Virus record (IMG/VR): IMGVR_UViG_3300006641_004726
Span: 1-53,015 of that record
DNA length: 53,015 nt
Strand: one strand, 5' to 3'
Source: a virus
The notes under the pieces were generated by a model. It was not told where the DNA came from. It did not search any database and saw only the letters and a program-made list of their open reading frames with translations. Position numbers and translations under genes: made by a program. Of this stretch, positions 12,641-43,098 are shown one piece after another (within the stretch, counting starts at the first letter, position 1; each line of letters begins with the position of its first letter).

Positions 12641-13213
12641 CTACCCCGCTTTACGGGTCAACTCTGAAAAGGTTTTACCCTGTATGATGTGCTTGAGCAT
12701 GTTTTCTATGGTTCTGACCGGGACTCCAAACTCTTTTGCCAGCCTCCCCTTGCCCCAATGATAGGATGATCGAGACTCGTATCTCAATTTCACTTCATTG
12801 AAAAGTTCTTCTGACCAGTGTTTTCTTTTATGTGGATGCCCCGTAATAGCCGCAGCAGCCCGCCCGGGGGCGTTGTTTCGCTTATGGCCGCTCTTCCCCA
12901 ATGACTGGATTTGGGATTTGTCCCGAGTTTTCCAAAGCTCCACCATTCGCTCAGAGTTATTGTCTTTCCATTGCTGTGTATGCTGTTTTCCAGTAAATCG
13001 ACGTGCTCTACTAGATAGTTCAGCCCAAATCTCTTCCTTTCCTTTGATTCCTAACAGCCCTTGCGCGGCCAGTAAATCTCTCTGATCACCCTTTTCCAAG
13101 TATCGCAAATTGTGCAAAAACGCGTGCATAGCAACGTTCACACGCACACGGTTATTAGGGGAGTCATCTCCACCGTCGTACTTAGGGGTTAAGTGGTGAG
13201 TGTGAAAGATCAT
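12641..13213 (-). CDS. HNH homing endonuclease-like protein
   Basis: 190 aa. The N-terminus THHLTPKYDGGDDSPNNRVRV is an HNH nuclease core (HH, then N, then H in MHAFLHNLRY). A central basic linker (GKSGHKRNNAPGRAAAAITG) leads to a C-terminal helix-turn-helix (KGRLAKEFGVPVRTIENMLK) that would bind DNA. It is inserted between the tail tube and a tail protein, starts 1-2 bases after the T-run of a terminator, and ends 4 bases before the next frame. There is no SD apart from the GGGG in the terminator stem. Free-standing homing endonucleases of this type spread between phage genomes. Target unknown. Confidence 0.85.
   Translation of the reverse strand: MIFHTHHLTPKYDGGDDSPNNRVRVNVAMHAFLHNLRYLEKGDQRDLLAAQGLLGIKGKEEIWAELSSRARRFTGKQHTQQWKDNNSERMVELWKTRDKSQIQSLGKSGHKRNNAPGRAAAAITGHPHKRKHWSEELFNEVKLRYESRSSYHWGKGRLAKEFGVPVRTIENMLKHIIQGKTFSELTRKAG
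12671..12680 (-). promoter_or_regulatory. GGGTAAAACC motif copy 2
   Basis: Perfect 10-mer within the 3' end of the HNH gene, 35 bases upstream of the ATC start of the tail protein. It could serve that gene, since the terminator at 13215-13247 cuts it off from upstream transcription. Confidence 0.4.
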
Positions 13214-14920: not shown

Positions 14921-15599
14921 TCAGCTGAAGGAAACGGTCACCATGCGACGGCCACCGATGTCGATGACTTCGCGGATGGTGGGGACAGTACCGTCGGCGG
15001 TCACGGCGGTGCCGGAAGCCGAAGCCTGACCGATGGCGTTCACCAGCAGAGGGCTGTTGTAGGTGATAGGAGCAGAAGCGGGATCCACTTCCACGAGCAG
15101 CAGACCGGAGGTAGCCACGGTAGCCAGACGAGGGGAAGCAGGAGCGTCAGCGAACAGGGGGATGAAGGCTTGGTTCACACCCAGGATGGTTGTGGGGGTA
15201 GCGCCAGGCAGGGTGCAGGTTCCCTGAGTGGTGCCAGCGCTCACGCAGCGGAACTCGCCGATAGCCACGGCAGGATCGCCAGTGAAGGTTTCCGCAAACC
15301 TGATGTCAAAATTGTTATCGTGGTGGCTCTTTATCCTCCACTTCTCCATGTTGCCATGGAGTTCAGACTATATCTTCACCCGCGTGGGGTGCCGGGCACT
15401 CGTGTCAGCCTCATCACTGGTCTAGTGGTACGCTGTTAGTCGTTGAACCTTCCGCCCATCCCTGGACGGCTTGGCTGCTGATTGTCCCAGAGGGAGATCC
15501 CAGCAATTCACCCGGTTTTTCACTCCACATTGCTGTGGAAGGCAGCTCTCAGGTCGACTGCTTGCCGTAGGCAGGTGCGGCGTTAGTCGAAGTAAACAT
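14921..15599 (-). CDS. Head decoration protein (DUF2190-like), split gene: exon 1 15557-15599, exon 2 14921-15318
   Basis: Exon 1 starts at ATG 15599 (MFTSTNAAPAYGKQ) and stops being protein-like at 15557. Exon 2 continues in frame at 15318 with YNNFDIRFAETFTGDPAVAI. Joining T (15557) to AT (15318) restores one 146-aa reading frame (43 + 398 bases with stop). The product, rich in Ala/Thr/Gly with AFIPLFADAPASPRLATVATSG and a closing IDIGGRRMVTVSF, matches small decoration proteins placed before the capsid gene in Mu-like phages. Between the exons lies a group I intron. Without splicing, translation of exon 1 would end at a TGA six bases into the intron. Confidence 0.75.
15319..15556 (-). ncRNA. 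Group I self-splicing intron (238 nt, no ORF)
   Basis: Minus strand shows the conserved core in order: P/Q elements AATTGCTGGGA and AATCAGCAGCCAAG, R element GGTTCAACGACTA, S element AAGATATAGTC. R GACTA pairs with S TAGTC to form P7. P1: exon end GCAGT pairs with GCTGC in the intron, leaving the usual U.G at the 5' splice site. P2 is TTCCACA-GCAA-TGTGGAG with a GNRA loop, and P9 is CTCCATG-GCAA-CATGGAG. A GTGG/CCAC hairpin then leads to the terminal G at 15319. The boundaries are supported by the restored reading frame. Confidence 0.9.
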
Positions 15600-15608
15600 G
15601 TCTCAATG

Positions 15609-16043
15609 TCAATGGGACTTTAAGGGGTGGAAGGTGGCCGTTCGTCTTCCTCGAACCCATCCTTCGCCGGGGCAAGTGTGGGATCGGGTTGACTTGATGC
15701 CATTTGTCCACCAAGGCATTTTGCCCAAAGTTCGGGCGGTTTCTGCAGCAACAGCCTTTGAATGGTCAGTTGCTGGCGCGCGTCCACCTCTCTTACCCGC
15801 ATTGCTGTGGTGTTGAGGGTGTCTCGCGATCCAATCTCGTCGTGCTTCAGCGATAGCTTCGGCTTGGGTGATTTGTCCTGAGAGCGCAAAGGCTGCCAGC
15901 CAATCTCCCAGTTCTCCGTATTCGAGGTATCGTGCGAAGTGAAGTTCTGCATGTTCCTCGACCGTGACTTCGATGAGGTTGGAAGGATCGTCAGTTCCGC
16001 CAGCGTGCTTTGGCAGAATGTGGTGGGTGTGGGTGACGGCCAT
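15609..16043 (-). CDS. Free-standing HNH endonuclease next to the intron-containing gene
   Basis: 144 aa. HNH core at the N-terminus (THTHHILPKHAGGTDDPSN, then HAELHFARYLEYGE). The C-terminus WWTNGIKSTRSHTCPGEGW is a short module common at the end of phage HNH proteins. Start ATG 16043 is preceded by an A/C-rich leader with no SD. The stop (15609) is 9 bases before exon 1 of the decoration gene, so the nuclease is outside the intron but adjacent to it. This is the arrangement of collaborative homing, where a free-standing nuclease mobilises a neighbouring ORF-less intron. A GGGTAAAACC motif lies 20 bases upstream. Confidence 0.85.
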   Translation of the reverse strand: MAVTHTHHILPKHAGGTDDPSNLIEVTVEEHAELHFARYLEYGELGDWLAAFALSGQITQAEAIAEARRDWIARHPQHHSNAGKRGGRAPATDHSKAVAAETARTLGKMPWWTNGIKSTRSHTCPGEGWVRGRRTATFHPLKSH

Positions 16044-19530: not shown

Positions 19531-20970
19531 TCAGGTGGGCTTCACCTTCGCCTCCTCCTCGTCCTCATCGTTGGCCATCGATGTGGCCTCGTCCTCAGTT
19601 ATTTGATCGTCGCCAAACGGCTTCTCTCCACCTTCTTCCTCTTCACCACCACCACCGAAGATCTTGTCATAGAGGTCGCCGTCCGCCTCAGGGTCGTATT
19701 CCTCAGGGGCGCCTTCCACTTCGGTGCCTGGAGCGGCAGCCTGGAAGTCCTCCTCCTCAGCGAGATCCACTTTGAAGTGGTTCTGGATCCACTCCTTCTT
19801 CGGCTTGTAGCCCGATTGGATCATGAGGCTCACATCTGCCATGGTCAGAGTGGACTCTTCCAGGTTAAACTGGCGGCTGATTTTCGGTGCCTCAACGTCG
19901 ACACCGAAGTTGAGGTCAACGATCCAACGAATGAGGGTGTCACTCAGCGTCTGAGAGATGAGCTGGGAAAGCTCCGAAGCGCGGATCACTCGCACCAGGT
20001 TTGCCACCTGAGATGAAGCTCGGCTGCCGGCTTCCGCTTGTCCCGCCTCGTCCTCACCGCAGATGAGCAGAGAGATCTCCTTGTCGATGTACTCGATGAG
20101 GTTCATGAAGATGTCCGCTGAACCCGATGGATTCAGGAACTCCAGCTCATAACCCTCGGGGAGGATCATTGCTGTCTCTTGAGACAGGTTGGAAAGGTGG
20201 TCGTACAGTGTGTCAATCTCAATGTTTGAGGCCGAGAGAGGAGCCTTCGCGATTGCGGTTGGCGTTGCGTAACGGTCGCCATACAGCACGTAAGACTCGA
20301 TAGCACGACGACGAAACTTAACGATCGGATACAGGATGCGACCCAGGCCCGTTCCATAAGGATCTCCTGTGTGAGAGAGCCAGTAGCGTTGGATGATGAA
20401 CTTGCGTGCCGGCAGTTCAATACCTTCAAACATCCGGTTGAAGGTCAGCACACGCATTGTGAAGCCAGTGTCTGCCTCCTCACTCTCCTGGAAGACAAAG
20501 CGGCGCTGGTCGCGGATGCGAACGTCAAACGGAATGATGCCTTGAGCTGTTTTCTTCCACATCACCTCGCCCACGCTGAACCCGCAGATGAGTGCCTCAC
20601 CGAGGCCTTTGTAGAGGTCGTCGACGTCCAGATACTGGAGTGCCTGTTCGACGTAGTCCTTCACTGCAAGGTCACCGGGCTTCTCGGAAGCTGGGGTCAG
20701 CAGCCAGTCACGGGAAGTGATCTCCTGGCAGAGTTTCATGAACGACGCCTGGACTGACGAGTCCCAGAACAGTCGTTTGTAGATGATGAGGGCGCGGTTG
20801 CCACCCTTCTGGATGATTAAGTCGTCGTCAGGGCGGACGATCGTGTTGCCCTGGCCAGTGAACGGGCTCGAAGACCCGAACATGTAGATGGACGACAGAT
20901 TGTACGGGTCCGTCGTATACTTCGCGACCTCTCCCGACGGAACCGGTGGGATGTTGAATCTTTTCGCCAT
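19531..20970 (-). CDS. Portal protein (Mu gp29-like, DUF935 type)
   Basis: 479 aa. Conserved elements include SSVQASFMKLCQEITSRDW, LIYKRLFWD, EALICGFSVGEVMWKK, VRIRDQRRFVF, GTGLGRILYPIVKFRRRAIE, RYATPTAIAKAP and SLLICGEDEAGQAEAGSRAS (the 'iLGqtlTt..g..GS.a' segment). They match the Mu-type portal that forms the dodecameric DNA entry vertex. The C-terminal 90 residues are acidic and Gly-rich (FGGGGEEEEGGEKPFG). Start ATG 20970 shares a base with the gp25-like stop. It is followed by the protease gene, as in Mu. Confidence 0.85.
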   Translation of the reverse strand: MAKRFNIPPVPSGEVAKYTTDPYNLSSIYMFGSSSPFTGQGNTIVRPDDDLIIQKGGNRALIIYKRLFWDSSVQASFMKLCQEITSRDWLLTPASEKPGDLAVKDYVEQALQYLDVDDLYKGLGEALICGFSVGEVMWKKTAQGIIPFDVRIRDQRRFVFQESEEADTGFTMRVLTFNRMFEGIELPARKFIIQRYWLSHTGDPYGTGLGRILYPIVKFRRRAIESYVLYGDRYATPTAIAKAPLSASNIEIDTLYDHLSNLSQETAMILPEGYELEFLNPSGSADIFMNLIEYIDKEISLLICGEDEAGQAEAGSRASSQVANLVRVIRASELSQLISQTLSDTLIRWIVDLNFGVDVEAPKISRQFNLEESTLTMADVSLMIQSGYKPKKEWIQNHFKVDLAEEEDFQAAAPGTEVEGAPEEYDPEADGDLYDKIFGGGGEEEEGGEKPFGDDQITEDEATSMANDEDEEEAKVKPT

Positions 20971-30369: not shown

Positions 30370-33165
30370 TTAGAGTAAACCGCGCTGGACAAGCCCGTGG
30401 CGGGTCTTGAGCCGGTCGATGGCACCCAGCTCAGCCAGCTCGCGCATGCTGAACTCCTGGCCGTCAGGCTCATCCTTGCCCTGAGGGTTGGACGGACTGA
30501 CGGTGCACTCGTGAGGTGTCTTCCGAATGCGGTTGTCGATGGCCACAGACGAGAAGAATGCTCGACTGAGAGGCACATCGGGAAGTCCCACAGAGGACTG
30601 GAAGCGAGCCCAGGTGTAGAGGTGGGCGATCTGGTAGGCGACAGCCCACAGCTCAGCGTGCTTCTCTGGAGCCATCCACCAGATCTCGTCGTGGATCGAG
30701 ATGATGAAGCGTACCTGAAGCTTGTACTCACGCATCAGCCAGTGGGCTGCGGTGAGGATTGTGGCCAGGATTTCTGCGCCCGACGCCTGAATCGTCCAGT
30801 TGATGCGACCAGTCAGGAAGTCGTCTCCCACGGCCGCGGGACGCAGTGCGGTCGAGATCTTGGTGCCGAGGCACGGAAGCTGAGGCACCTTGGTCTTGAG
30901 AGCGAGACGTTCCATGTAGTTGAAGCAACCGGAGTCGCTACCGCCTTGGAATGGCTCACTCTTGTACTGACGGTAGCCCTTCTTCGCCTCCAGCATCTTC
31001 ATCGCCAGGTTGTTGAGCTCCCTGGCGTTTCGGTCTGGGAACTTGCGGCGGATTGTGTTGGCCACAGTCCGCATGCCGGCGCCGTAGAGAACTGCGAAGC
31101 CCACACCCTTGGCAGTGTCACGGTCCACGCCGGCCGCTTTTGCCAGTGCGGAGTGAGGATCAGTTCCCTGCTCTTTCGAGCCGGAGAGCACACTGAAACC
31201 CATGGGAGAGCCGCCCACGACCCCTGTGTCCCACGCGTCACAGTAGGCGGACGCGATCTGAAGCTCCTGACCGTCAAAGTCAGCACCCACAATCTTCCAG
31301 CCGTCAGGCGCAGACACGCGGGTCTTGAGCTCTGTGCCGATGCGCCAGTTCTTGGTCGAGCACATGGTCACCATGAGCGGTTCCACAGTGCGTCGCGTCA
31401 CAGTGCCGTGAGCCAGGATCTCTGGCAGGGTGATGTAGGCGTCCTCACCGTGTGGATTGTGAGCCTTGACGAAGATGCGATCCATCACACGCTTGCGCAC
31501 GGATGTCCAGTAGGAGGTCGCGTTGGCGATCTCGAGAGCTCGCTTGGCCTCAGGCAGGTCGCTGTCGAGACGACCGACCTTCATGTCATCGACGAAATCC
31601 TTGGACAGCAGCACACCCACATTGTCCTTCTGGTTCTTGGGGTGGGGGATCTTGGTGAGCTCACCTTCTTCGTTGGTGTAGCACCAGCCCTGTTTCTTGG
31701 TGGCTACGATCGGGCTGCCTTCCCACTTCAGCTTGAGCAGCAGGTGGGCGAGCTGGTTCTTCGGCGTGATGCGTCGGTCGGGATCCTTGATGAAGTCCCG
31801 ATACCAGTTGGGGATGTGGGCGTACTTGCCTTTCACAGTCTTGACATCCCAGTCCAGCTGGTGGAGCCACGGGTCACGGTCTGCCCACGCCTGGGCTTTC
31901 TCAGGATTCTGGTCGTAGATCTCACGCCACGCCGCGTAGTGGGTCTCAGCCAGCTCACGGCAGACGTCGCCCATCTCACGGATGTAGCTGTGGTAGGTGT
32001 CCTCACAACGCTGGATCCACTTGGTCCAGTCCTCAGGCAGAGGAATCACCGAGCCGTTGAGGTGGTACATGCCACACAGACCCACCATGCTCGGAGTCGA
32101 GTCGAGGTACTTTGGCCAGATGGCTTGGAACAGCTCAGCGGTGTAGAACGCGTCCTTGACGGCATAGTCGAGAGCCTCGAAGATGGCGTGGCGGATGACA
32201 GCGAGGTCAGGTGCGGTCACGAACAGGTCTCGCACCTCCTTGTCCTCGTAGCCCAGCTTCTTGGCTTCACCACCGAAGAACTTGCGCACCTCGTAGACGT
32301 GGAAGTTGTAGCACTCGACCAGGGAGTTGGTGGAACCAGCCTCGAGCCACTTGGGGGCGAAGCGGAGCTTCCGTTTCTCCTCCTCGGTCATCTCCTCAGG
32401 TTCCTTTCCCGCAAGAACGTACAGCCAACGCTGACCAGAAGCAAGACCAGAAACCCCGATGTGAGCGGAAAGAGTGTCGAAGTAGAAGTTCTCGGGCTCG
32501 GAACGGTCGAGGGAATAGGCTTCGCGAGAACGAACGCGGTCATAAGAGATGTTGTGGCCTGCTACGAACTTGTTCTCCCCGATGGGGATCATGTCGTACT
32601 GCGTCCACTCCGACTGCGGGATCGAAGGATCGATAAGTTCCGCCGCAAGCCAGATGTAAGCCGCTTCAGAGGAGAGCGCCGTTCCGATGATAGGGAATGC
32701 GCCTCCAACCACGAAGGTCTCAGTGTCAAAGGTGAACGCTTGCTCGAGAGGGTGCGGGACTGTTTCCGTAGTCCACTTGCCATCCTTTCCAAGCGTGTAG
32801 CGAGTCCATCCAGGGTTGAGGACAAGGTCGTCAATGCCTGGGATCGGCGGGAGCGTGGCTTGAGCGAAATCATCTGCTGCTTTCTTGTGGTGGCCGATCT
32901 GCTCTTCTGCGATCTTCTCGAAGTGTTCCTCGATCGTCACTCCCTTCAGATCGGGAAGGGGGAGTGGCCCGTCGTACATGCCTTCGGCGTGAGAGACAGG
33001 GACGGGGACCTTGAACTTCTCCAAAAGAGAAACCGCCCGGTCCAACTGTTTCTGAGTCGGTTCCGGGCGGGGAACTGTGCCGAATAGCTTCCGGTGAACC
33101 TCGTCAGAGACCACCGGATAGCCGAGTTCGTTCTTGCGCATGTGCGGCACGTTGAGTTTTGTCAT
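30370..33165 (-). CDS. Family A DNA polymerase of the mitochondrial polymerase gamma type
   Basis: 931 aa. Exonuclease: Exo I FDTET (D147, E149), Exo II AGHNISYD (D209), Exo III YAVKD (Y334, D338). Polymerase: motif A VGADFDGQELQIAS (D629), motif B AKGVGFAVLYGAG (K686, F690, Y694), motif C ISIHDE (825-827). All catalytic residues are present. Family features otherwise known from POLG also occur in order: NPGWTRY before the exo domain, DTLSAHIGVSGLASGQR, NSLVECY, DPWLHQLDWD, AHGTVTRRTVEP, GGSDSGCFNYME, PCLGTKISTALRPAAV, AFFSSVAID, SPSNPQG. It lacks a 5' nuclease domain, and a separate one is at 51804. The spacer is shorter than in human POLG. Start ATG 33165. Confidence 0.95.
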   Translation of the reverse strand: MTKLNVPHMRKNELGYPVVSDEVHRKLFGTVPRPEPTQKQLDRAVSLLEKFKVPVPVSHAEGMYDGPLPLPDLKGVTIEEHFEKIAEEQIGHHKKAADDFAQATLPPIPGIDDLVLNPGWTRYTLGKDGKWTTETVPHPLEQAFTFDTETFVVGGAFPIIGTALSSEAAYIWLAAELIDPSIPQSEWTQYDMIPIGENKFVAGHNISYDRVRSREAYSLDRSEPENFYFDTLSAHIGVSGLASGQRWLYVLAGKEPEEMTEEEKRKLRFAPKWLEAGSTNSLVECYNFHVYEVRKFFGGEAKKLGYEDKEVRDLFVTAPDLAVIRHAIFEALDYAVKDAFYTAELFQAIWPKYLDSTPSMVGLCGMYHLNGSVIPLPEDWTKWIQRCEDTYHSYIREMGDVCRELAETHYAAWREIYDQNPEKAQAWADRDPWLHQLDWDVKTVKGKYAHIPNWYRDFIKDPDRRITPKNQLAHLLLKLKWEGSPIVATKKQGWCYTNEEGELTKIPHPKNQKDNVGVLLSKDFVDDMKVGRLDSDLPEAKRALEIANATSYWTSVRKRVMDRIFVKAHNPHGEDAYITLPEILAHGTVTRRTVEPLMVTMCSTKNWRIGTELKTRVSAPDGWKIVGADFDGQELQIASAYCDAWDTGVVGGSPMGFSVLSGSKEQGTDPHSALAKAAGVDRDTAKGVGFAVLYGAGMRTVANTIRRKFPDRNARELNNLAMKMLEAKKGYRQYKSEPFQGGSDSGCFNYMERLALKTKVPQLPCLGTKISTALRPAAVGDDFLTGRINWTIQASGAEILATILTAAHWLMREYKLQVRFIISIHDEIWWMAPEKHAELWAVAYQIAHLYTWARFQSSVGLPDVPLSRAFFSSVAIDNRIRKTPHECTVSPSNPQGKDEPDGQEFSMRELAELGAIDRLKTRHGLVQRGLL

Positions 33166-33172
33166 CAAGGGT

Positions 33173-33204: not shown

Positions 33205-35886
33205 TTAGGAGATAGTAACGTTGAACGGTCCGAATCTGCCTTGAGGGCCGGTGACGTAGTAGATGCCGAAGAGACCCAGAGTGTACAACTCACTCTCAGT
33301 CGCAGTAAAGGTTGTGACTCCAGTATACTTCCTTGAAGGAGTAAAAGGAGAGATGGCGCTAACCCAGATCTCAAGAGAGCTAACCTGAACTGCTCCACCG
33401 TTGTTGAAAGTCGGGAGAGTTAGAGTGCAGTTGTACGTGGTGCCTGTGCCCTTCGTGGCCGTGAAAGCCCAGGGAGTGGTGCCACCGTAAGGAATCGTGG
33501 GGTCATTCAAAGGACCGACGATGTTGCTCAGGGCTGTTGCTGAAGAGCCTGTCTTTGGGTTGACAGCGGTCCACTTAATAGCTGTGTAGTTGCCGGACCC
33601 GGGGAATGGGGTGTCACTAGGGTCGCCTGGAGGGTCAGATAGGAACTGCTTAGAGTTTGGAACGGCGGAGTTCCGCAGCAGGTAACTTCCCACGCTCGGG
33701 TAATTGTTCTGTGTCTGAATTCCTGAAGGGAGCGCACTACCAAGAGAGTTACAGAGAATGTACTCTTTTGTGATCGTGATGGGGTCTGCGCTTCCATCAG
33801 TTGCGGTTGAAGCAGAGTACGTCGCTTGAATAGAGTTGTCGTATAGGCCAACTTTCGCGAAGTTCGTGCTTCCAACTGTCAGCTGACCAACTGACGTGAA
33901 GTACACCGACGGTGCTGGGACTGGAACGGAGGAAGTGTAAGTGCCTGAGTCTGAACCGGCAGCGTTAGTTACGGTGTAGTCCACCTCGATGAGGAGTCCT
34001 ACGAAAACGTCCGAGAGGTTGAGAGTGAGACCGCCATTCTGAATCGCAGTCTTTGTTCCACCGGCTTTCACAGTGTACCAAGTCCACGCCTCGGTGTAAG
34101 CGGCAGGAATGCCGGCCTGAACGGTTGGCTTGGTGAATGTCGCCACAGTTCCGGGCTGGAACGGGATAGAAGCTGTCGAAGTGACGGTTCCGGGTGCCGT
34201 GATTATCGGGCGAGTGCCGCCGATTTTCCAGGTGGGGCTATTTTGAGTGTAGGTGTTCCCCTCGAACGTCACGCTGTAGGTAGCGTAGGCGTCTCTCCCG
34301 AACCACGAGGCGAGGATAGTGTAAGGATCGCTCGCAGATGCGCCACCTTGGAGTGTTCTCAGCTGCCCTTGGATCGGAACCGTTCCACCATACGCAGTGT
34401 TCTGAGGCTGACTTTGTGGGTACACCAACTGAACACGATCACCCACTTTAGGGGGCGCACCGGGAACAGTAAGGTTGGTGTAGCTACCTTGAGAGGTGAA
34501 GGTGAAGAAGTGGCCCGGACGAATTGGGTTGCTCAGACTCAATACACCAAGGGGGTACAGTGGGCTGAAAGCTGTGGTTCCGTAAGCGACGTCTTTCCCA
34601 ACTTCGGCTTCAGTGAGGGTGTAAGTCGTGTCTCCGATTGTACCTATGCCCACCCAGTTCGGCACGCCAGCCGTTCCGTCATTGCGGTAGAAACGGTTTA
34701 TGGTCGACGTGATGGCGGGAACAGCATCAAAAACTGCGGGTGTGCCTGTGACGATTGTGCCAGGATAAGCGGTGTCGCCAGTGTAGGAAATCACCGGTTT
34801 AGTGACCACATTGAGGTAACCCTCAGCTGGGCCAACTATCTCTGACAGACTTGTTGCGGTGAGGATGCCAATAGTGCCAATGGTCCTGAACGCGAAGCTC
34901 TTACCAAAATCAGCAGCCGTTACGGAGAAAGTCGTAGAGTCGGCATAACCCACTGGGATGGGGTTGTTCGGATCAGTGACGTCAACAAAGCCGAATGAGA
35001 CACTAGGAGGACCATACGACTGAAAGACCGCTGGTGTTCCAGTTAAACCATCTCCGACATAAAGCGGATCCTTGATGCTGATTTTTGAAGGAGACTGAAT
35101 CACAATCTCACCGCACACAGCAATGGTGTTAGTGAGAGCAAACGATGAGCCGCCCGCGCCGAACACAGTCGTACGCACAGCCACTTCGTCGCCTACAGCG
35201 GTAGGTGGAATGACAAAAGTATCGCCACCTAGTTGCCAAACCTCGTCCGAGTTGTTGGCGTTCACCCAAGTAGTGAAGGTGCTGTAATTGGGTTGTTGTG
35301 AGAAGATAGTAGCACCGGAGAATGACAAAACATCTCCGGGAACTGGACAGTAGCTTGGGTCCGAGTTAGGAATTGCAATCTCAATGGTTCCGGGATCAGT
35401 GATGATCGGAGCCGGAGCGAGACATGGCCCGTAAGGAACGGTTTGTGTGCCAACAGTGCCGACGCTGTTGGAGGCGACGGTTTGAACAACGAGGTTGTAA
35501 GCAGCGTCAGCGATCTGAACGGTATAGTTCAGTCCAGTGCCAACGATTAAGGAGGTTCCACCCGGATTGTAACGAATCCAGTTGTATTGAACGGTGATTG
35601 GGGCGGTTCCGGTTACAGTGCCGGGAACGAAAGTCAGGGCGGTCCCAACTTCTGGACTGCCGGAGATAGTGCCCGCCGACTCAATCTTCGGATCCGGAGC
35701 GTAGACGCCATCCGGATAAGTGGGGCCTTCAACTGTACTGCCTTCGCAGACGTAAGCCGCACCGAATCCCGTGTCGACGTAGGCGACGGGGAGGCGATAC
35801 AGCGGTTGACCGCCAACAATGGTCCAGCCGATGACTTCTGTTCCGGCTGCCGAGTTGGCATAATTTGGGAATTGAGGGTTTAACAT
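33205..35886 (-). CDS. Adhesin-like virion protein with repeated Ig-like domains
   Basis: 893 aa. Residues 1-60 (LNPQFPNYANSAAGTEVIGW, GGQPLYRLP) resemble the 64-aa protein at 36461. The rest consists of roughly 80-100-residue beta-sandwich repeats: GTISGSPEVGTALTF, GTVTGTAPITVQYNWIR and PGTIVTGTPAVFDAVPAI patterns, with NSVG, YTVTNAAGSDSGTYTSSV. Such arrays occur in phage tail fibres and surface adhesins that touch the host envelope. ATG 35886 overlaps the GIY-YIG stop by 7 bases. No catalytic motif. Confidence 0.75.
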   Translation of the reverse strand: MLNPQFPNYANSAAGTEVIGWTIVGGQPLYRLPVAYVDTGFGAAYVCEGSTVEGPTYPDGVYAPDPKIESAGTISGSPEVGTALTFVPGTVTGTAPITVQYNWIRYNPGGTSLIVGTGLNYTVQIADAAYNLVVQTVASNSVGTVGTQTVPYGPCLAPAPIITDPGTIEIAIPNSDPSYCPVPGDVLSFSGATIFSQQPNYSTFTTWVNANNSDEVWQLGGDTFVIPPTAVGDEVAVRTTVFGAGGSSFALTNTIAVCGEIVIQSPSKISIKDPLYVGDGLTGTPAVFQSYGPPSVSFGFVDVTDPNNPIPVGYADSTTFSVTAADFGKSFAFRTIGTIGILTATSLSEIVGPAEGYLNVVTKPVISYTGDTAYPGTIVTGTPAVFDAVPAITSTINRFYRNDGTAGVPNWVGIGTIGDTTYTLTEAEVGKDVAYGTTAFSPLYPLGVLSLSNPIRPGHFFTFTSQGSYTNLTVPGAPPKVGDRVQLVYPQSQPQNTAYGGTVPIQGQLRTLQGGASASDPYTILASWFGRDAYATYSVTFEGNTYTQNSPTWKIGGTRPIITAPGTVTSTASIPFQPGTVATFTKPTVQAGIPAAYTEAWTWYTVKAGGTKTAIQNGGLTLNLSDVFVGLLIEVDYTVTNAAGSDSGTYTSSVPVPAPSVYFTSVGQLTVGSTNFAKVGLYDNSIQATYSASTATDGSADPITITKEYILCNSLGSALPSGIQTQNNYPSVGSYLLRNSAVPNSKQFLSDPPGDPSDTPFPGSGNYTAIKWTAVNPKTGSSATALSNIVGPLNDPTIPYGGTTPWAFTATKGTGTTYNCTLTLPTFNNGGAVQVSSLEIWVSAISPFTPSRKYTGVTTFTATESELYTLGLFGIYYVTGPQGRFGPFNVTIS

Positions 35887-36461
35887 TGATCTAAGGGTTT
35901 CCGGTGCGAGGAGTCAATCCCAAGACGCTTCTGGTGCCGGGCAACGTTTCCCGCATTACCGATAAATCCTGTCTTGGTGCATACAAACTGTTTGTTCTGG
36001 GCTTTCCTAAGGAGGCCAGACTCAACATTGATTTTCCCTTGCCGTTTTCCTAGGGACTGAATGTGTCCTGACTCAATGTTATTCTTTCCTTGAGACTTCC
36101 CGCCTTTGGGAGCCCCAAGTTGTTGGACTCGGAGCATGTGCCCCGTTTTCACGTTGACCAGACCCTGAGTGTGGCCCCCTAGGGCGCACGTGTCGATTCT
36201 GCCGAAGTCGGGGGAGGGCTGATTAGCTTTGTTGGCGAAGTGGGGGTTGTCGGCAACTTCAAAGTAGCGGTGAAGGATAACCTCCGCCGCCACTGCTTGC
36301 TCCCTTGTAGGGAACTCAGCGATGATGATCTTGTCAGTGGGTTGGAAGGTTGGATCAACGTAACTTCCGAAGTACCCGTCAGTGACGGGATCCTCAGACG
36401 ACTTGACGCCGATGTACCCACGTCCCCACTCTTCGTAGGAGTAGTAGACGTAATGTTTCAT
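35880..36461 (-). CDS. GIY-YIG homing endonuclease-like protein
   Basis: 193 aa from ATG 36461. The N-terminus KHYVYYSYEEWGRGYIGVKS holds the GIY-YIG pair in the variant form VYY...YIG. It is followed by DGYFGSYVDP and AEVILHRYFEVADNPHFANK (conserved Glu and Asn region). The C-terminus has NUMOD-like DNA-binding repeats, N[VI]xxGH[MI]xxLG with Gly/Lys/Gln linkers (NVKTGHMLRVQQLGAPKGGK, NNIESGHIQSLGKRQGKINV). It is squeezed between two genes with related N-termini, overlapping both (TGATG and a 7-base overlap). Typical of mobile free-standing endonucleases. Confidence 0.8.
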   Translation of the reverse strand: MKHYVYYSYEEWGRGYIGVKSSEDPVTDGYFGSYVDPTFQPTDKIIIAEFPTREQAVAAEVILHRYFEVADNPHFANKANQPSPDFGRIDTCALGGHTQGLVNVKTGHMLRVQQLGAPKGGKSQGKNNIESGHIQSLGKRQGKINVESGLLRKAQNKQFVCTKTGFIGNAGNVARHQKRLGIDSSHRKPLDQC

Positions 36462-36655
36462 CAATATGCGGGAGGCACGGAGGTGCTACCGGTCGGGATG
36501 ATCGCTGCGCAACGCAGGTTCGGAGGCATCACCTGAGGAAGCCGGTAGAGAGGATAGCCGTTGGCGTCGTAATTGACGATGCTGGTCCAGGCAGCTGCGT
36601 AGTTGGGGTAGTGTGAGTTCAGATTGCTGCCACCCACCTGAGGAGTATCTGGCAT
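36461..36655 (-). CDS. Short adhesin-N-terminus paralogue (64 aa)
   Basis: Residues 9-55 (SNLNSHYPNYAAAWTSIVNY, ANGYPLYRLPQ) align with residues 1-45 of the 893-aa adhesin (LN-x-x-[YF]-PNYA...G-x-PLYRLP). It looks like a duplicated or detached first module left upstream of the GIY-YIG gene. ATG 36655, 25 bases after a GGGTAAAACC motif. It may be a true small virion protein, or the remnant of the adhesin 5' end after nuclease invasion. Confidence 0.65.
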   Translation of the reverse strand: MPDTPQVGGSNLNSHYPNYAAAWTSIVNYDANGYPLYRLPQVMPPNLRCAAIIPTGSTSVPPAY

Positions 36656-36680
36656 TGGGAGGAGCTAGGAGTGCTGGGAG

Positions 36681-36690
36681 GGTTTTACCC
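36681..36690 (-). promoter_or_regulatory. GGGTAAAACC motif copy 6
   Basis: Perfect 10-mer containing the TAA stop of the 85-aa gene and lying 25 bases before the adhesin module. Confidence 0.5.
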
Positions 36691-36942
36691 CGGCTCGATG
36701 TCCCAGAATGTTTCACCAGGATCTCGGTCGTTCAGGCCCAGATTGAAGTGGTCATTCACCACCTCGAGCTCCGCACGCATGAACTGATTGCACCGCAGGT
36801 GGATGCGCAGGCGCCACGTCATGTAGGCCTTCCGGTTGGCTTGTGTGGGATTCTCGACGTACTTCTCGTAAGTTGAGGCGACCTTGTTCACCAGGTCAGG
36901 ACCGATCTTGGTGTGGGACGCCTTGGGGCTGATGACTCTCAT
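36685..36942 (-). CDS. Small helical protein, unknown (85 aa)
   Basis: ATG 36942 (MRVISPKASHTKIGPDLVNK) overlaps the preceding stop (ATGA). An upstream extension of the frame is shadow sequence. The middle VASTYEKYVENPTQANRKAY, TWRLRIHLRCNQFMRAELEV is helical and basic. It ends FWDIEPG with the stop inside a GGGTAAAACC motif. No family recognised. The genes at 36.7-38.4 kb appear to be one transcription unit. Confidence 0.7.
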   Translation of the reverse strand: MRVISPKASHTKIGPDLVNKVASTYEKYVENPTQANRKAYMTWRLRIHLRCNQFMRAELEVVNDHFNLGLNDRDPGETFWDIEPG

Positions 36943-37835
36943 GAGAGGCGTGTCTGTGCTGTGTGTTGGTTGAACTCGCGGATGCGAGTCGAGTCGTAGA
37001 TCTCGCTGCGATGCTTCTGCAGCAGATCCATCGCGTCGTGGATCTTGGGGAACGCCATCATCCGGTCTGCCGGATTGTTGCGCCACACGTCGATCTCCTC
37101 CAGGGAGAACGGCCGGTCGTCTTCCCAGTCGGGGTCTGCCTCGCCGTAGATGAGGGGCAGGGCGTCACGGACCCACCACTCCTGGACTTTTGGTGCGAAC
37201 TGCTCCCACGCGCCTGGGGTGGTGATGTGGGTCTCGCACTCGCTGCGGATCCACTTGACGAACTCACGACCACGCTGCACCACGATCTCGGCGGTCACTG
37301 GGACGTCATCGAGGAGGTAGGCAGGGTCGTCACCGCTCATGACACGGTTGTAGACGGAGGGGAACACCACGCTCTGAGATGCCGCTTCGACGTCTGAAGC
37401 CTGGTCGCCGTGTGTGGACCACGAGGTGATGGCGGACAGAATCGCATCGAAGATGGCAATTGTGCGTGCTTTGCCAAGGACGACCTCATTGACAGACGCC
37501 TCGGCCTTGGAAGGCTGGTCCTTTTGGAGCTTCTCTATTTCCTTCTCAAGCTTAGCAATCCGCTTCTCATAGTCCTCACGCAACGACTTCTCATACGCGT
37601 CAAACTTGGAGATGAACTTGTCGATTCTGCCACTTGAAGAGCCGATCTCTTTGTCCATCGTGTCAATGATGGCATCCAAGGCATTAAGCTTGGATGAGAC
37701 CTGTTCTACGACGCGGCTCAGGGTGCTTCTGGTCTCATTGACCTTCTGTCGCGTGTTGGCAGTTTTCGTTGCGAGTCGCAGTTGCTCATTCTTCAGAGCC
37801 CCTGCAGCGTAGTTTAGATAGTCACGTGAGAGCAT
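36939..37835 (-). CDS. Coiled-coil protein, unknown (298 aa)
   Basis: Residues 10-125 form a long predicted coiled coil (TRSTLSRVVEQVSSKLNALD, YEKRIAKLEKEIEKLQKDQ). The C-terminal 170 residues are a separate Trp/Pro-rich domain (VVQRGREFVKWIRSECETH, VQEWWVRDALPLIYGEADPD, MMAFPKIHDAMDLLQKHRSE). ATG 37835, 1 base after the upstream stop. It could be a virion fibre or internal protein. Nothing diagnostic was seen. Confidence 0.75.
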   Translation of the reverse strand: MLSRDYLNYAAGALKNEQLRLATKTANTRQKVNETRSTLSRVVEQVSSKLNALDAIIDTMDKEIGSSSGRIDKFISKFDAYEKSLREDYEKRIAKLEKEIEKLQKDQPSKAEASVNEVVLGKARTIAIFDAILSAITSWSTHGDQASDVEAASQSVVFPSVYNRVMSGDDPAYLLDDVPVTAEIVVQRGREFVKWIRSECETHITTPGAWEQFAPKVQEWWVRDALPLIYGEADPDWEDDRPFSLEEIDVWRNNPADRMMAFPKIHDAMDLLQKHRSEIYDSTRIREFNQHTAQTRLS

Positions 37836-37836
37836 C

Positions 37837-38379
37837 TCAGTCGTTGAACACGGTTGCTTTGAGTTGGTCGGTTGCGATGTCGATCACCTCGATCTTGAAC
37901 CCAAACATTCTATCAGGGTCTGAGAGCAGGTGGAACGACCCACTGAAGAAGTCTCCGTCATCGGAGCGGAGGTACTGGTTCGAGGGCATTGGTGGGTCGC
38001 AGAGCACGATGTCTCCTGCGAACTCCGGCTTGCTCTCCTCGATGGCAGTCACGAGGCGGCGGTACATCGTGGATGTGATCGCCATCTCGTCTTCGTTGGA
38101 GATGCCAGCCACGTACTCGCCCTGAGGCCGGAGCTCTGCAGCTGTGCCTGTATCGAGGATCACTTGGATCACGCCAGGTTCGTCGGGCGACTCGCGGAAG
38201 CAGGCCTCGGTGGCGTGGAATTCTATCTCGTCTGGTTCTGAGTCGTTGATGTCAGCCTCGATCAGCTCGTAAAAGAGATCCTTGATCGTGGGTGCGTCGG
38301 GTCCGCCGATGTGTGCTGCGATCGCGAAGAAGATCTTCGGATTGGCTAGCAAACGATCGACCGGATAGATGATTTCCAT
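37837..38379 (-). CDS. Unknown acidic protein (180 aa)
   Basis: ATG 38379 (MEIIYPVDRLLANPKIFFAI). The open frame continues upstream, but a -10-like box and a GGGTAAAACC motif in that stretch argue for this start. Acidic with mixed alpha/beta pattern: AHIGGPDAPTIKDLFYELIE, GVIQVILDTGTAAELRPQGE, EMAITSTMYRRLVTAIEESK, FGFKIEVIDIATDQLKATVF. No family recognised. Confidence 0.7.
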   Translation of the reverse strand: MEIIYPVDRLLANPKIFFAIAAHIGGPDAPTIKDLFYELIEADINDSEPDEIEFHATEACFRESPDEPGVIQVILDTGTAAELRPQGEYVAGISNEDEMAITSTMYRRLVTAIEESKPEFAGDIVLCDPPMPSNQYLRSDDGDFFSGSFHLLSDPDRMFGFKIEVIDIATDQLKATVFND

Positions 38380-38399
38380 GAGTCTCAGTCTCCAGGTCC

Positions 38400-38405
38400 A
38401 GTGTA
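38400..38405 (-). promoter_or_regulatory. -10-like box (TACACT) before the 180-aa gene
   Basis: CACTACACTGGACC, 20 bases upstream of ATG 38379, just downstream of GGGTAAAACC copy 7. Confidence 0.3.
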
Positions 38406-38435
38406 GTGGGCTGGGGGCCCAGTGAACCACATCGT

Positions 38436-38513: not shown

Positions 38514-40520
38514 TCACGCGAGCTCATCCAGACTGGCGACCTTGTTGCCCTTTGCACCTGGTCGACCCGCCTTGGCGGTGGCCAGTGTGATCTGCATCGG
38601 CTTCTTCCGCTTCGATTTGAACTCCACGGTGTAGCCATCCTCTCCGAAATGCACGAGCTCTGCTCCCTCAGGGAGAGCGCTCTTGCCCTTGCTCGTGGTC
38701 TTGCACAGATCCTCACCGCTGAGGGTCAGAGCCTTGAGCTGCCCTTCGAGCTTGAACACCATCAGGTACTTCCTGAGGGAAACCTCCGCCTCCCTCTTGG
38801 CCAGCACCACACCCGTGTAGGAGTCGGCGATGGGTCCCTTGAACGTGGCAGGCACCTTCTTGAGGAGACCGTCCTGCGTGAGGAACACCACCTTGTCCTT
38901 CTGGTCCAGCACCAGAGCACCGCGTGGTCCCTTGGCTTGGGTCACTGTGCCTTTGCGTTGGTCCACCACCATGAACCGCGGGCGAGCCGTCCTGGGTCCC
39001 TGGTCGCGCTTTGCCGCGGTGGATGAGGTTGCCTTCACAAACCCTGCCGGAGGCCCAACCAGGGGCGACCTCCTGCGCTCTCCGTGGCGCTTCGCAAGCT
39101 CCTCCATCTGAGCGAGTGCCCACGTCTTCCGTGCGTCCTTGCTCTTCACCAGGTTCTCCAGCTCTGCCACAGTGGAGATGAGTTCCTGCTCCTCAGCGAG
39201 GAGTTCCTCACGGTCCAGGCCGGTGAGTTGCCGCAGCTTCATCTCGAGGATGGCTCTGGCTTGGTCCGGTGTGAACTTCAGCGTGCGGGTCGTCACCAGT
39301 GTGGTGAGAGCATCCTTCGGTGTGGCCGAAGCGCGGATGATCTTGATGACGGCATCGATCTTGTCGATCGCCTTGAGGAAGCCACGAACGATCTCGAGGC
39401 GTGCCTCCTTCAGGTCAAGCTCGTGCTTGAACTTGACTTCCAGGCGACCCAGTCTCCACTCGAACCATCTCTGACAAATGTCAACTGGCGAGAGCTCGAC
39501 CGGTCGCGTACCGTCAATAACCAGCGTCTTTGCCGAATAGCGAGTGTCAAGATCGGTGGTTGCGAAGAGTTGCTGAGCCAGCTGTTCAGCGTCCACACCG
39601 GGCTTCGCAACAACACTGACACGGTCTCCGGAGAGATCAGACTCATCGATGACTTCTGCGATTCCGTCGATTCGCCCCTTCTCGAGGGCTTCCTTGATCT
39701 GTTCACCCAGTTTTTCAGGGTTGATCCGAGGCGGTAGGTTTGTAAACGTGACCACTCCTCGATCCTTCGCCCGACCCTCACGCTTCTGCGTAGAGACCTC
39801 GTAGCGTGCTCGACAGCGAATGCTGCCGCTACCAGTCTGAGTGTAAGTAAGTAGATTCTCATCCTGAACGATCTCGCATCCTGTGGGGAAGTCAGGGAGC
39901 AGGAGTTCCCGCGCTTTCTTGATGTTTCCAGTCGCAGCGAGCGTGGTTGCCTTCACGACGTCACGCAGGTTGTGCGGTGCGAGCGTTGTGGCGAAGCCCA
40001 CTGCGATGCCAGCGTCTCCGTTGAGGAGGATCGAAGGCACTGCAGTGTTGAAGCGCGCAGCCTCCTGACGAGAACCGTCGTAGTTCGGTCGTGTGTCCCA
40101 CGTGGCACGGTCCTGAAGCAGCAGTTCCACTGCTGAGGGACGGAGCTTCGCCTCCGTGTAGCGCTCAGCTGCAGGTCCATCGACGGAGGAACCGAAGTTG
40201 CCATGGCCGTTCACCCACGGAACGTTGTTGTTCCACTCGGTGGCCATGTTGACCAGAGTGCCGTAGCAACTGCCTTGTGGGTGGTAGTAGGCGAGTGTGA
40301 GGCCGGTGACGCGAGCGCACTTGACGAACTTCTTCTCAGGGGTGAGACCCTCCTCGATCATCGTCTGGAGGATTCTCCTCGCCGCAGGCTTCAGGCCGTC
40401 GTAGAGGTCAGGGATCGCTCGGCCGAGGAGCACGGCCATCGCGTAGTCGCCGTAGTCCTCCTTCATCTGGTTGGCCAGATTGACTGGCACCACGTTCTCT
40501 TTCACGCTTCGTTTCGGCAT
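38514..40520 (-). CDS. Type IIA DNA topoisomerase A subunit (GyrA/ParC-like)
   Basis: 668 aa. The breakage-reunion domain is complete: YGDYAMAVLLGRAIPDLYDG, LKPAARRILQTMIEEGL (QP-RR region), the GNFGSSVDGPAAERYTEAKL stretch with active-site Tyr121 after Arg120, GFATTLAPHN, and later FTPDQARAILEMKLRQLTGL (C-gate helix). The C-terminal 170 residues hold a shortened beta-pinwheel-like part (RFMVVDQRKGTVTQAKGPRG, KVVFLTQDGLLKKV). It introduces or removes DNA supercoils together with an ATPase subunit not seen in the window. ATG 40520 with an A/C-rich leader (CCAAACACACAC) and no SD. A TACACT box lies upstream. Confidence 0.92.
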   Translation of the reverse strand: MPKRSVKENVVPVNLANQMKEDYGDYAMAVLLGRAIPDLYDGLKPAARRILQTMIEEGLTPEKKFVKCARVTGLTLAYYHPQGSCYGTLVNMATEWNNNVPWVNGHGNFGSSVDGPAAERYTEAKLRPSAVELLLQDRATWDTRPNYDGSRQEAARFNTAVPSILLNGDAGIAVGFATTLAPHNLRDVVKATTLAATGNIKKARELLLPDFPTGCEIVQDENLLTYTQTGSGSIRCRARYEVSTQKREGRAKDRGVVTFTNLPPRINPEKLGEQIKEALEKGRIDGIAEVIDESDLSGDRVSVVAKPGVDAEQLAQQLFATTDLDTRYSAKTLVIDGTRPVELSPVDICQRWFEWRLGRLEVKFKHELDLKEARLEIVRGFLKAIDKIDAVIKIIRASATPKDALTTLVTTRTLKFTPDQARAILEMKLRQLTGLDREELLAEEQELISTVAELENLVKSKDARKTWALAQMEELAKRHGERRRSPLVGPPAGFVKATSSTAAKRDQGPRTARPRFMVVDQRKGTVTQAKGPRGALVLDQKDKVVFLTQDGLLKKVPATFKGPIADSYTGVVLAKREAEVSLRKYLMVFKLEGQLKALTLSGEDLCKTTSKGKSALPEGAELVHFGEDGYTVEFKSKRKKPMQITLATAKAGRPGAKGNKVASLDELA

Positions 40521-42222: not shown

Positions 42223-43098
42223 CTAGTTGACCGCCACCTTGATGGCGTCGTGAGGCTGGTAGTTGGAGATGCCGAGGTCATCCAGCTGCACGTCATCCCA
42301 GCTCGTGTACTCACGCTGGTTCAGGAGGAGACGACACTCTGGGCGGGACTCACGAGCGATCAGCTCCTCAGCGATGTCGTAGCAGTTCTTGTAGATGTGG
42401 GAGTTGGAGGATGGCATGTAGACGTAGCGTGGCTCGAAGCCAGTCATCTTGGCCATCACCGTCAGGATGATCGCGTAGCGTGCGATGTCCAGAGGGAAGC
42501 CCACGATCATGTCGTTGGACCGTGCCGGAACCATGAGGTCGAGCTCATCACCGCTTGGTGTGAACTGCATCGCCAGATGGCACGGCGGACACCCCACATT
42601 CATCGCAGTGGGATTGGTCGTGATGACGGTGCCGTGACGTGAGTTTGGAGTGTCAGCGAGGAGAGCACGGACACGCTCAAGCTGGTCAACGGCACCCACG
42701 GTCACAAGAGTCTCATTTGGAACCTCAGAGCCTGCCCGTGAGGCAGGCCACTTGCGCCATTGACGATTGTAGGCGGAAGCACCGAGCTCGCCGTCATCAT
42801 CAGCAAGGAAGTCCCAGAAGTGGCGAGCAGGGCCGAGGGCTTCGACGTTCTGTGAGAGACCGATGTCAAACAGGAACTCACGAACGAGATTCTTGAACGG
42901 CATCTTGCGAAGCCGAGTCAGAGGGAAGCCGCACTGGAGGTCGACACGGACAGACGCACCGAACGTGGACTTGGTCTCACCATTCCGACCGACGAAGCCC
43001 TCACCGTAGTCCATCAGTTTCGTGATGTAGGCGCGGTAGATGTCATCCCAGTTGTTGCTGGTGATGATGGTGTCGTTGAAGACGAAGTTGTGACTCAA
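42223..43098 (-). CDS. ThyA-family pyrimidine (hydroxy)methyltransferase with dCMP-type Asp
   Basis: 291 aa. Thymidylate synthase fold: catalytic Cys in CPPCHLAMQF, phosphate-site ARSND, GFPLDIARYAIILTVMA, SHIYKN (His and Tyr of the sugar site), NRQWRKWPA, and EFLF Glu. In ThyA the GLPFNIASYA motif carries the Asn (E. coli N177) that reads uracil. Here it is Asp (GFPLDIA). Asn-to-Asp is known to switch thymidylate synthase to dCMP and is the state of T4 dCMP hydroxymethylase. The C-terminus is shortened (IKVAVN). The start is TTG 43098 with GGAGG 7 bases upstream, overlapping the kinase stop (TTGA). Predicted substrate dCMP; methyl versus hydroxymethyl product open. Confidence 0.85.
   Translation of the reverse strand: MSHNFVFNDTIITSNNWDDIYRAYITKLMDYGEGFVGRNGETKSTFGASVRVDLQCGFPLTRLRKMPFKNLVREFLFDIGLSQNVEALGPARHFWDFLADDDGELGASAYNRQWRKWPASRAGSEVPNETLVTVGAVDQLERVRALLADTPNSRHGTVITTNPTAMNVGCPPCHLAMQFTPSGDELDLMVPARSNDMIVGFPLDIARYAIILTVMAKMTGFEPRYVYMPSSNSHIYKNCYDIAEELIARESRPECRLLLNQREYTSWDDVQLDDLGISNYQPHDAIKVAVN

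Follow-up and report, generated by a model that had tools for sequence, protein, structure and literature searches.

The gene at positions 30370-33165 of the virus record IMGVR_UViG_3300006641_004726 is confirmed by its sequence to encode a full-length homologue of DNA polymerase gamma (Pol gamma), which replicates the mitochondrial DNA of animals and fungi and is represented below by human POLG and yeast Mip1. We will call the window the whole stretch of DNA that was analysed, namely the 53,015 nucleotides of this record. When the lines of evidence are read jointly, the gene is very probably the replicative Pol gamma-type polymerase of a tailed cyanophage, a diverged relative of Synechococcus phage S-CBWM1. 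Phage Pol gamma is not a discovery in itself. An earlier note on this DNA could not tell whether such an enzyme had been reported. It had been: according to passages of PMC7156551, which cite Chan 2011, Sabehi 2012 and Xu 2018, reports of Pol gamma began in 2011 and cover A-HIS1/2, S-TIM5 and S-CBWM1, to which Mic1 is added. The cyanophage and mitochondrial genes are proposed there to descend from a common ancestor, and the idea of a phage origin is repeated in passages of PMC3914683 and PMC4928673. The window enzyme adds a member to this known, thinly sampled group, which is both confirmed and widened by the finding.

The reading frame lies on the minus strand, which the earlier note had left unstated, and starts at the ATG at 33165 or at a TTG at 33168, the latter giving 932 residues, and residues are counted here from the ATG. 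The profile search that the earlier note had proposed brings out PF18136 (E=5.6e-59, 200 bits) and then PF00476 (42.7 bits), both over cut-off, and PHROG 22619, annotated "DNA polymerase", matches the protein at 5.6e-231. The two Pfam domains are found together in 32/32 members of alignment A5, and PF18136 has matches in 0/14 cellular control genomes. The features of the window and the DUF5906 genes of other Pol gamma records are collected in the table.

Table. Features of the window, and DUF5906 genes in other Pol gamma records.
Feature	Sequence	Position	Strand	Remarks
Pol gamma homologue, open reading frame	window	30370..33165	minus	931 aa from ATG; open, intact, full-length
PF18136, mitochondrial-type 3'-5' exonuclease domain	window	32107..32961	minus	residues 69-353; D147, E149, D209, Y334, D338
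Spacer, Exo III Asp338 to RR-loop Arg591	window	31396..32151	minus	252 residues
PF00476, family A polymerase core	window	30649..31335	minus	residues 611-839; D629, R682, K686, F690, Y694, H825, D826
Phe690 codon, human Y951 position	window	31096..31098	minus	alignment and translation
Two genes, 298 and 197 aa	window	36939..38430	minus	match S-CBWM1 gp76 and gp75
DNA gyrase/topoisomerase IV subunit A	window	38514..40520	minus	52% to S-CBWM1 gp73
Thymidylate synthase (nucleotide supply)	window	42223..43098	minus	
5'-3' exonuclease (flap nuclease), separate gene	window	51804..52685	minus	likely partner in primer removal
Portal protein	window	19531..20970	minus	nearest S-CBWM1, 58.5% identical over 91%
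DUF5906 (D5/SF3-like) protein	L171	7671-9656
DUF5906 (D5/SF3-like) protein	L048	861-2675
DUF5906 (D5/SF3-like) protein	L173	593-2449
DUF5906 (D5/SF3-like) protein	L174	3232-5178
DUF5906 (D5/SF3-like) protein	L168	1513-4197

The enzyme had been described in the earlier note as a family A polymerase with intact exonuclease and polymerase motifs, collinear with POLG beyond the catalytic motifs, and this description holds. The catalytic residues that were checked are all present, and the peptide landmarks (18/18) were found in the translation in the correct order. In a phmmer search of the PDB, the similarity to POLG runs nearly end to end and lies far above chance, with E=9.2e-113 for yeast Mip1 (9c51_A) and E=7.2e-111 for human POLG (5c51_A); human and mouse POLG entries fall at about 1e-111 to 1e-107, against E=0.0015 for Klenow, the best non-POLG family A enzyme of the PDB. 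A structure was predicted with AlphaFold, which is itself trained on PDB structures; the input was the window sequence together with 31 sequences of IMG/VR, and no templates were given. The model has a mean pLDDT of 86.3 and a pTM of 0.86. In the comparison with POLG that had been suggested as a check, Foldseek ranks 1-36 against the PDB are all POLG structures, and with VIA-align POLG takes all of the first 35 places among PDB entries (Z 29.0-44.6, 752-874 residues aligned), the next being Pol theta and T7 at Z 21.1. The window protein as modelled adopts the POLG fold along its chain.

The conservation of single residues was read from an alignment of 151 rows (8 reference rows and 143 contig-derived rows), in which some contigs entered repeatedly, so that the counts are inflated: the exonuclease residues D147, E149, D209, Y334 and D338, the RR-loop R592 and the polymerase residues D629, R682, K686, Y694, H825 and D826 are identical in 151/151 rows. 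The first Arg of the RR-loop (R591) is kept in the window and is variable in the family: of these redundant rows, 98 have Arg, 46 Asn and 7 Gly. Phe690, which had been claimed as the equivalent of human Y951, is found in the translation; Phe stands at this position in 95 and Tyr in 56 rows, with the same redundancy. By lineage, Phe is carried by the window, S-CBWM1 and A-HIS1, and Tyr by S-TIM5, Mic1, L168, human and yeast. Phe at this fingers position confers stronger discrimination against ddNTPs, as known from work on Pol I and T7, and by analogy Phe690 predicts that the window enzyme would discriminate against dideoxynucleotides more strongly than POLG. That the PolB tyrosine is missing from A-HIS1/2 and S-CBWM1 is already stated in a passage of PMC7156551.

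The spacer is shorter than in human POLG, as had been noted, with 252 residues against 452 (200 fewer), and it is also 55 residues shorter than the 307 of yeast Mip1. According to a passage of PMC4419789, the AID is specific to metazoans and absent in yeast, where Pol gamma is processive without an accessory subunit. The length of the spacer argues against an AID subdomain in the window enzyme, but its middle part aligns too weakly (2.4 bits, phmmer against the PDB) to tell which elements have gone; by this length the enzyme would resemble the yeast plan. As even Mip1, with its longer spacer, does without an AID, a POLG2-type accessory subunit is most likely not needed by the window enzyme.

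The identity of the phage comes from the polymerase and from the genes around it. When the polymerase was searched by tblastn against 50,697 phage records, 16 matched and 11 covered at least 80% of the query: S-CBWM1 (2 records, 54% identity), the S-TIM group (5 records, 37-38%), Mic1 (1 record, 33%) and A-HIS1/2 (3 records, 32%). S-CBWM1 is thus the nearest named phage, and contigs of IMG/VR are nearer still, with polymerases 85-100% identical. Matches to S-CBWM1 at E<=1e-5 were obtained for 27 of the 55 ORFs of the window, these ORFs being called mechanically and some surely spurious, in a search that covered 116 of the 139 kb of S-CBWM1. In this phage, gp76 and gp75 sit between gyrA and the polymerase, and in the window gyrA, gp75, gp76, the polymerase and the downstream genes follow the same order apart from insertions; the roughly 3.5 kb (33205-36716) between the polymerase and the gp76 homologue have no S-CBWM1 match. 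Given the polymerase, the portal and the shared genes in kept order, the window is, on sequence grounds, a fragment of a diverged S-CBWM1-like phage. The source phage would probably belong to another genus, and a cyanobacterial host is suggested by its relatives. The 7/20 Pol gamma records that match PF00124 (the psbA/psbD family) include phages of the S-CBWM1 type as well as of the S-TIM5 type; the window, a genome fragment, has no such match. The window also carries a group I intron (Rfam RF00028, 79.9 bits) at 15344-15603 on the minus strand, adjoined by an HNH-like ORF (15609-16043) that weakly matches the homing endonuclease within the S-CBWM1 psbA intron. A second HNH-like ORF (12641-13213, minus strand) lies in the structural gene region and weakly matches S-CBWM1 gp28, a "putative HNH nuclease".

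Polymerases of this type are carried by many metagenomic phage contigs, of several deep lineages. Scans of IMG/VR yielded 43, 141 (80 kept), 3 and 43 relatives, in overlapping sets, and A-HIS queries found no A-HIS-like relatives there. When 84,980 species genomes of bacteria and archaea were scanned twice with a few short peptide patterns, no Pol gamma homologue came out: 41 and 78 stretches fitted the patterns, and 0 of them encoded a relative. Plasmids, searched with the N-terminal part of Mic1 only, gave no match. One contig, IMGVR_UViG_3300033515_000021 (L168), holds a divergent Pol gamma lineage on a long branch, at 24-29% identity, which adjoins a DUF5906 protein. In a Mic1-like gene, a group I intron (Rfam) is found at polymerase motif A (L123:6779-7082), where the gene of Mic1 is split, while the Mic1-like contigs L132 and L157 have an uninterrupted Pol gamma gene; in Mic1 itself, no group I intron was found there over the Rfam threshold.

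For the trees, 156 loci gave 154 Pol gamma ORFs and 143 near-full-length entries, with Mic1-like halves joined and several contigs fetched repeatedly under different locus ids. An 85% identity cut reduced these and the 8 reference rows to 40, and further thinning left 30 (ingroup tree), 19 plus 5 outgroups, and 17 (final ingroup tree). The ingroup trees were built with IQ-TREE under LG+C20; the outgroup of the other tree was T7, CRP-171, BRock, Lbo-JY12 and E. coli Pol I. The 30-row tree resolves five phage lineages (window/S-CBWM1, S-TIM5, A-HIS, Mic1 and L168) in addition to human/yeast; several deep forks are unsupported in this tree and in the outgroup tree, and the placement of L168, a long branch, is unsure. 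The window clade groups with S-TIM5 at 99/97 with 17 rows (98/96 and 94/90 for the two halves), a grouping that is weak or unsupported when L168 is included, as in the 30-row and outgroup trees. The eukaryotic rows are human and yeast only, both opisthokont and assembled from aligned PDB fragments, and the 30-row tree came with warnings that their long branches meet and that their amino-acid composition is unusual. Mic1 groups with these two rows at 100/99 in both ingroup trees (30 and 17 rows) and at only 88/68 with the outgroup. This drop, the meeting long branches with their unusual composition and the unsupported deep forks tell against regarding the pairing as firm.

These trees, which had also been proposed as a check, bear on three other readings of the gene. 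There is next to no chance that it encodes an ordinary T7-like or Pol I-like polymerase whose POLG likeness is limited to shared family A motifs. Weak matches to Klenow, BRock, CRP-171 and Lbo-JY12 do exist, but a 100/100 branch parts all 19 Pol gamma rows, the window among them, from the five outgroup polymerases; with PF18136 at 200 bits, and other family A folds reaching at best Z 21.1 against 29-45 for POLG, such an identity is refuted by phmmer, the outgroup tree and the structure ranking. It was further suggested in the earlier note that the window lineage could itself be the phage source or the sister group of mitochondrial POLG. The near end-to-end similarity and the POLG fold of the model speak for this, and the kinship with Pol gamma stands; the window lineage as sister does not. 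When the window clade is held with human/yeast, the AU test gives p=1.2e-5 with the outgroup and p=6.8e-8 without it. Against human and yeast, Mic1 scores 517 and 514 bits and the window 436 and 406 bits, and Mic1 stands closer to these two than to any of the five other phage Pol gamma references; the pairing of Mic1 with human/yeast recurs in the exonuclease half (100/100), in the polymerase half (99/98) and with either human or yeast removed (SH-aLRT 99 and 100, quick trees). With the present sampling it is thus highly improbable that the window lineage is the source or sister; of the phage lineages sampled, that of Mic1 comes nearest to human/yeast POLG (100/99, or 88/68 with the outgroup). 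The S-TIM5-like lineage (AU p=1.9e-6) and the A-HIS-like lineage (p=3.4e-4) were also rejected as sisters of human/yeast without the outgroup; such p-values are valid if the group is named before the tree, which is true for the window clade, put forward in the earlier note, and not strictly for these two.

As to the direction of transfer between phage and eukaryote, the outgroup data, with two eukaryotic rows, fit either course. A tree in which all phage Pol gamma form one clade, with the eukaryotes outside it, trails by only 0.2 log units and is not rejected (AU p=0.49, with outgroup), as would be expected if phages had taken Pol gamma from a eukaryote, or if both had received it from an unsampled source. 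Against this, phage Pol gamma is deep and varied, with five lineages including L168 at 24-29%, a weak argument with two eukaryotic rows. We regard a eukaryotic or unsampled source as unlikely, though well short of negligible.

The gene content of the Pol gamma phages touches on the same question. In passages such as that of PMC12230644, the animal mitochondrial replisome is repeatedly said to have a single T-odd phage origin. The T7-type RNA polymerase (PF00940) and the DnaB/Twinkle-type helicase domain (PF03796) are each found in 0/21 Pol gamma records (20 including the window, plus Mic1), most of which are contigs, many of them fragments, the four genome records being S-CBWM1, S-TIM5, A-HIS1 and Mic1; both domains are matched by the positive controls T7 and CRP-171. 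For the window alone, a fragment, these absences are weak. What most Pol gamma records do carry is a DUF5906 protein under the annotation "DNA primase", the domain of the S-CBWM1 copy lying just under the Pfam cut-off. With the DUF5906 proteins of S-CBWM1, A-HIS1, S-TIM5 and Mic1 as queries, every search of the 50,697 phage records ended in one and the same set of 9, or 7 distinct phages once the double entries of S-CBWM1 and S-TIM5 are merged. This set coincides with the Pol gamma genome records of the tblastn search, whose remaining two full-length matches come from entries of a single gene. The L168 protein, which is more distant, finds only 4 of the 9. A family profile built from these five proteins matches 17/21 Pol gamma records, the five source records included, and neither T7 nor CRP-171. 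It is found in 10/10 metagenomic Pol gamma contigs longer than 104 kb (a cut-off chosen with the result in view) and in 1/22 further, shorter contigs (26-74 kb), but neither in the window nor in three contigs of 103, 92 and 86 kb. In A-HIS1 and L168, the DUF5906 gene is close upstream of the polymerase. The Pol gamma contigs of L096 (279 kb) and L103 (277 kb) are about twice the size of S-CBWM1, and their DUF5906 gene is broken into at least two pieces, perhaps by introns, inteins or frameshifts.

A "primase" is already named among the shared replication genes in a passage of PMC7156551. According to a passage of PMC9611036, DUF5906 belongs to D5-type SF3 helicases, of which it forms the AAA+ domain, so that a helicase would be a likelier product than a primase. 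Phages with true Pol gamma relatives are not T7-like, which bears on the statement of a single T-odd origin: their gene content argues against one T-odd phage having donated all three mitochondrial enzymes, although the ancestor may have had a different set. We can only tentatively propose, as a possible reading that we would not call probable, that animal and fungal mitochondrial Pol gamma came from a Mic1-like cyanophage module (Pol gamma and a D5/SF3-like DUF5906 helicase), acquired separately from T7-like Twinkle and POLRMT. The replisome would then be a mosaic from at least two phage donors, and the window lineage a distant cousin within the phages of this module.

To return to the window enzyme as the probable replicative polymerase of an S-CBWM1-like cyanophage, it is a single-chain family A enzyme of the Pol gamma type, made of an N-terminal domain, a proofreading 3'-5' exonuclease, a short spacer and a polymerase core. 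It probably copies the phage genome together with the separate flap nuclease and the gyrase, its activity and processivity being presumed, and the flap nuclease would be the likely partner for primer removal. In most of the longer relatives, the helicase partner would be the DUF5906/SF3-like protein annotated as "primase".

Among known systems, the closest is DNA polymerase gamma gp77 of Synechococcus phage S-CBWM1 (Aokuangvirus), which is 54% identical over 99% of the protein, has Phe at the Y951 position and lies in a partly collinear neighbourhood. It differs by having 92 residues between the equivalents of D629 and K686, against 56 in the window, and its phage has a GC content of 51-52%, against 57%. 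The DNA polymerase of cyanophage S-TIM5 (Aurunvirus) shares the domains of the window enzyme at 37% identity, but it has Tyr at the Y951 position and Asn in place of the first RR-loop Arg. That of Microcystis phage Mic1 (ORF85/86) has the same domain order at 33% identity (tblastn), whereas its gene is split in two and its lineage, among the sampled phages, is nearest to human/yeast POLG. Finally, human POLG and yeast Mip1 are 31-32% identical to the window protein, with the catalytic residues and the modelled fold in common; unlike it, they are nuclear-encoded mitochondrial enzymes, and they carry Tyr where the window enzyme has Phe.
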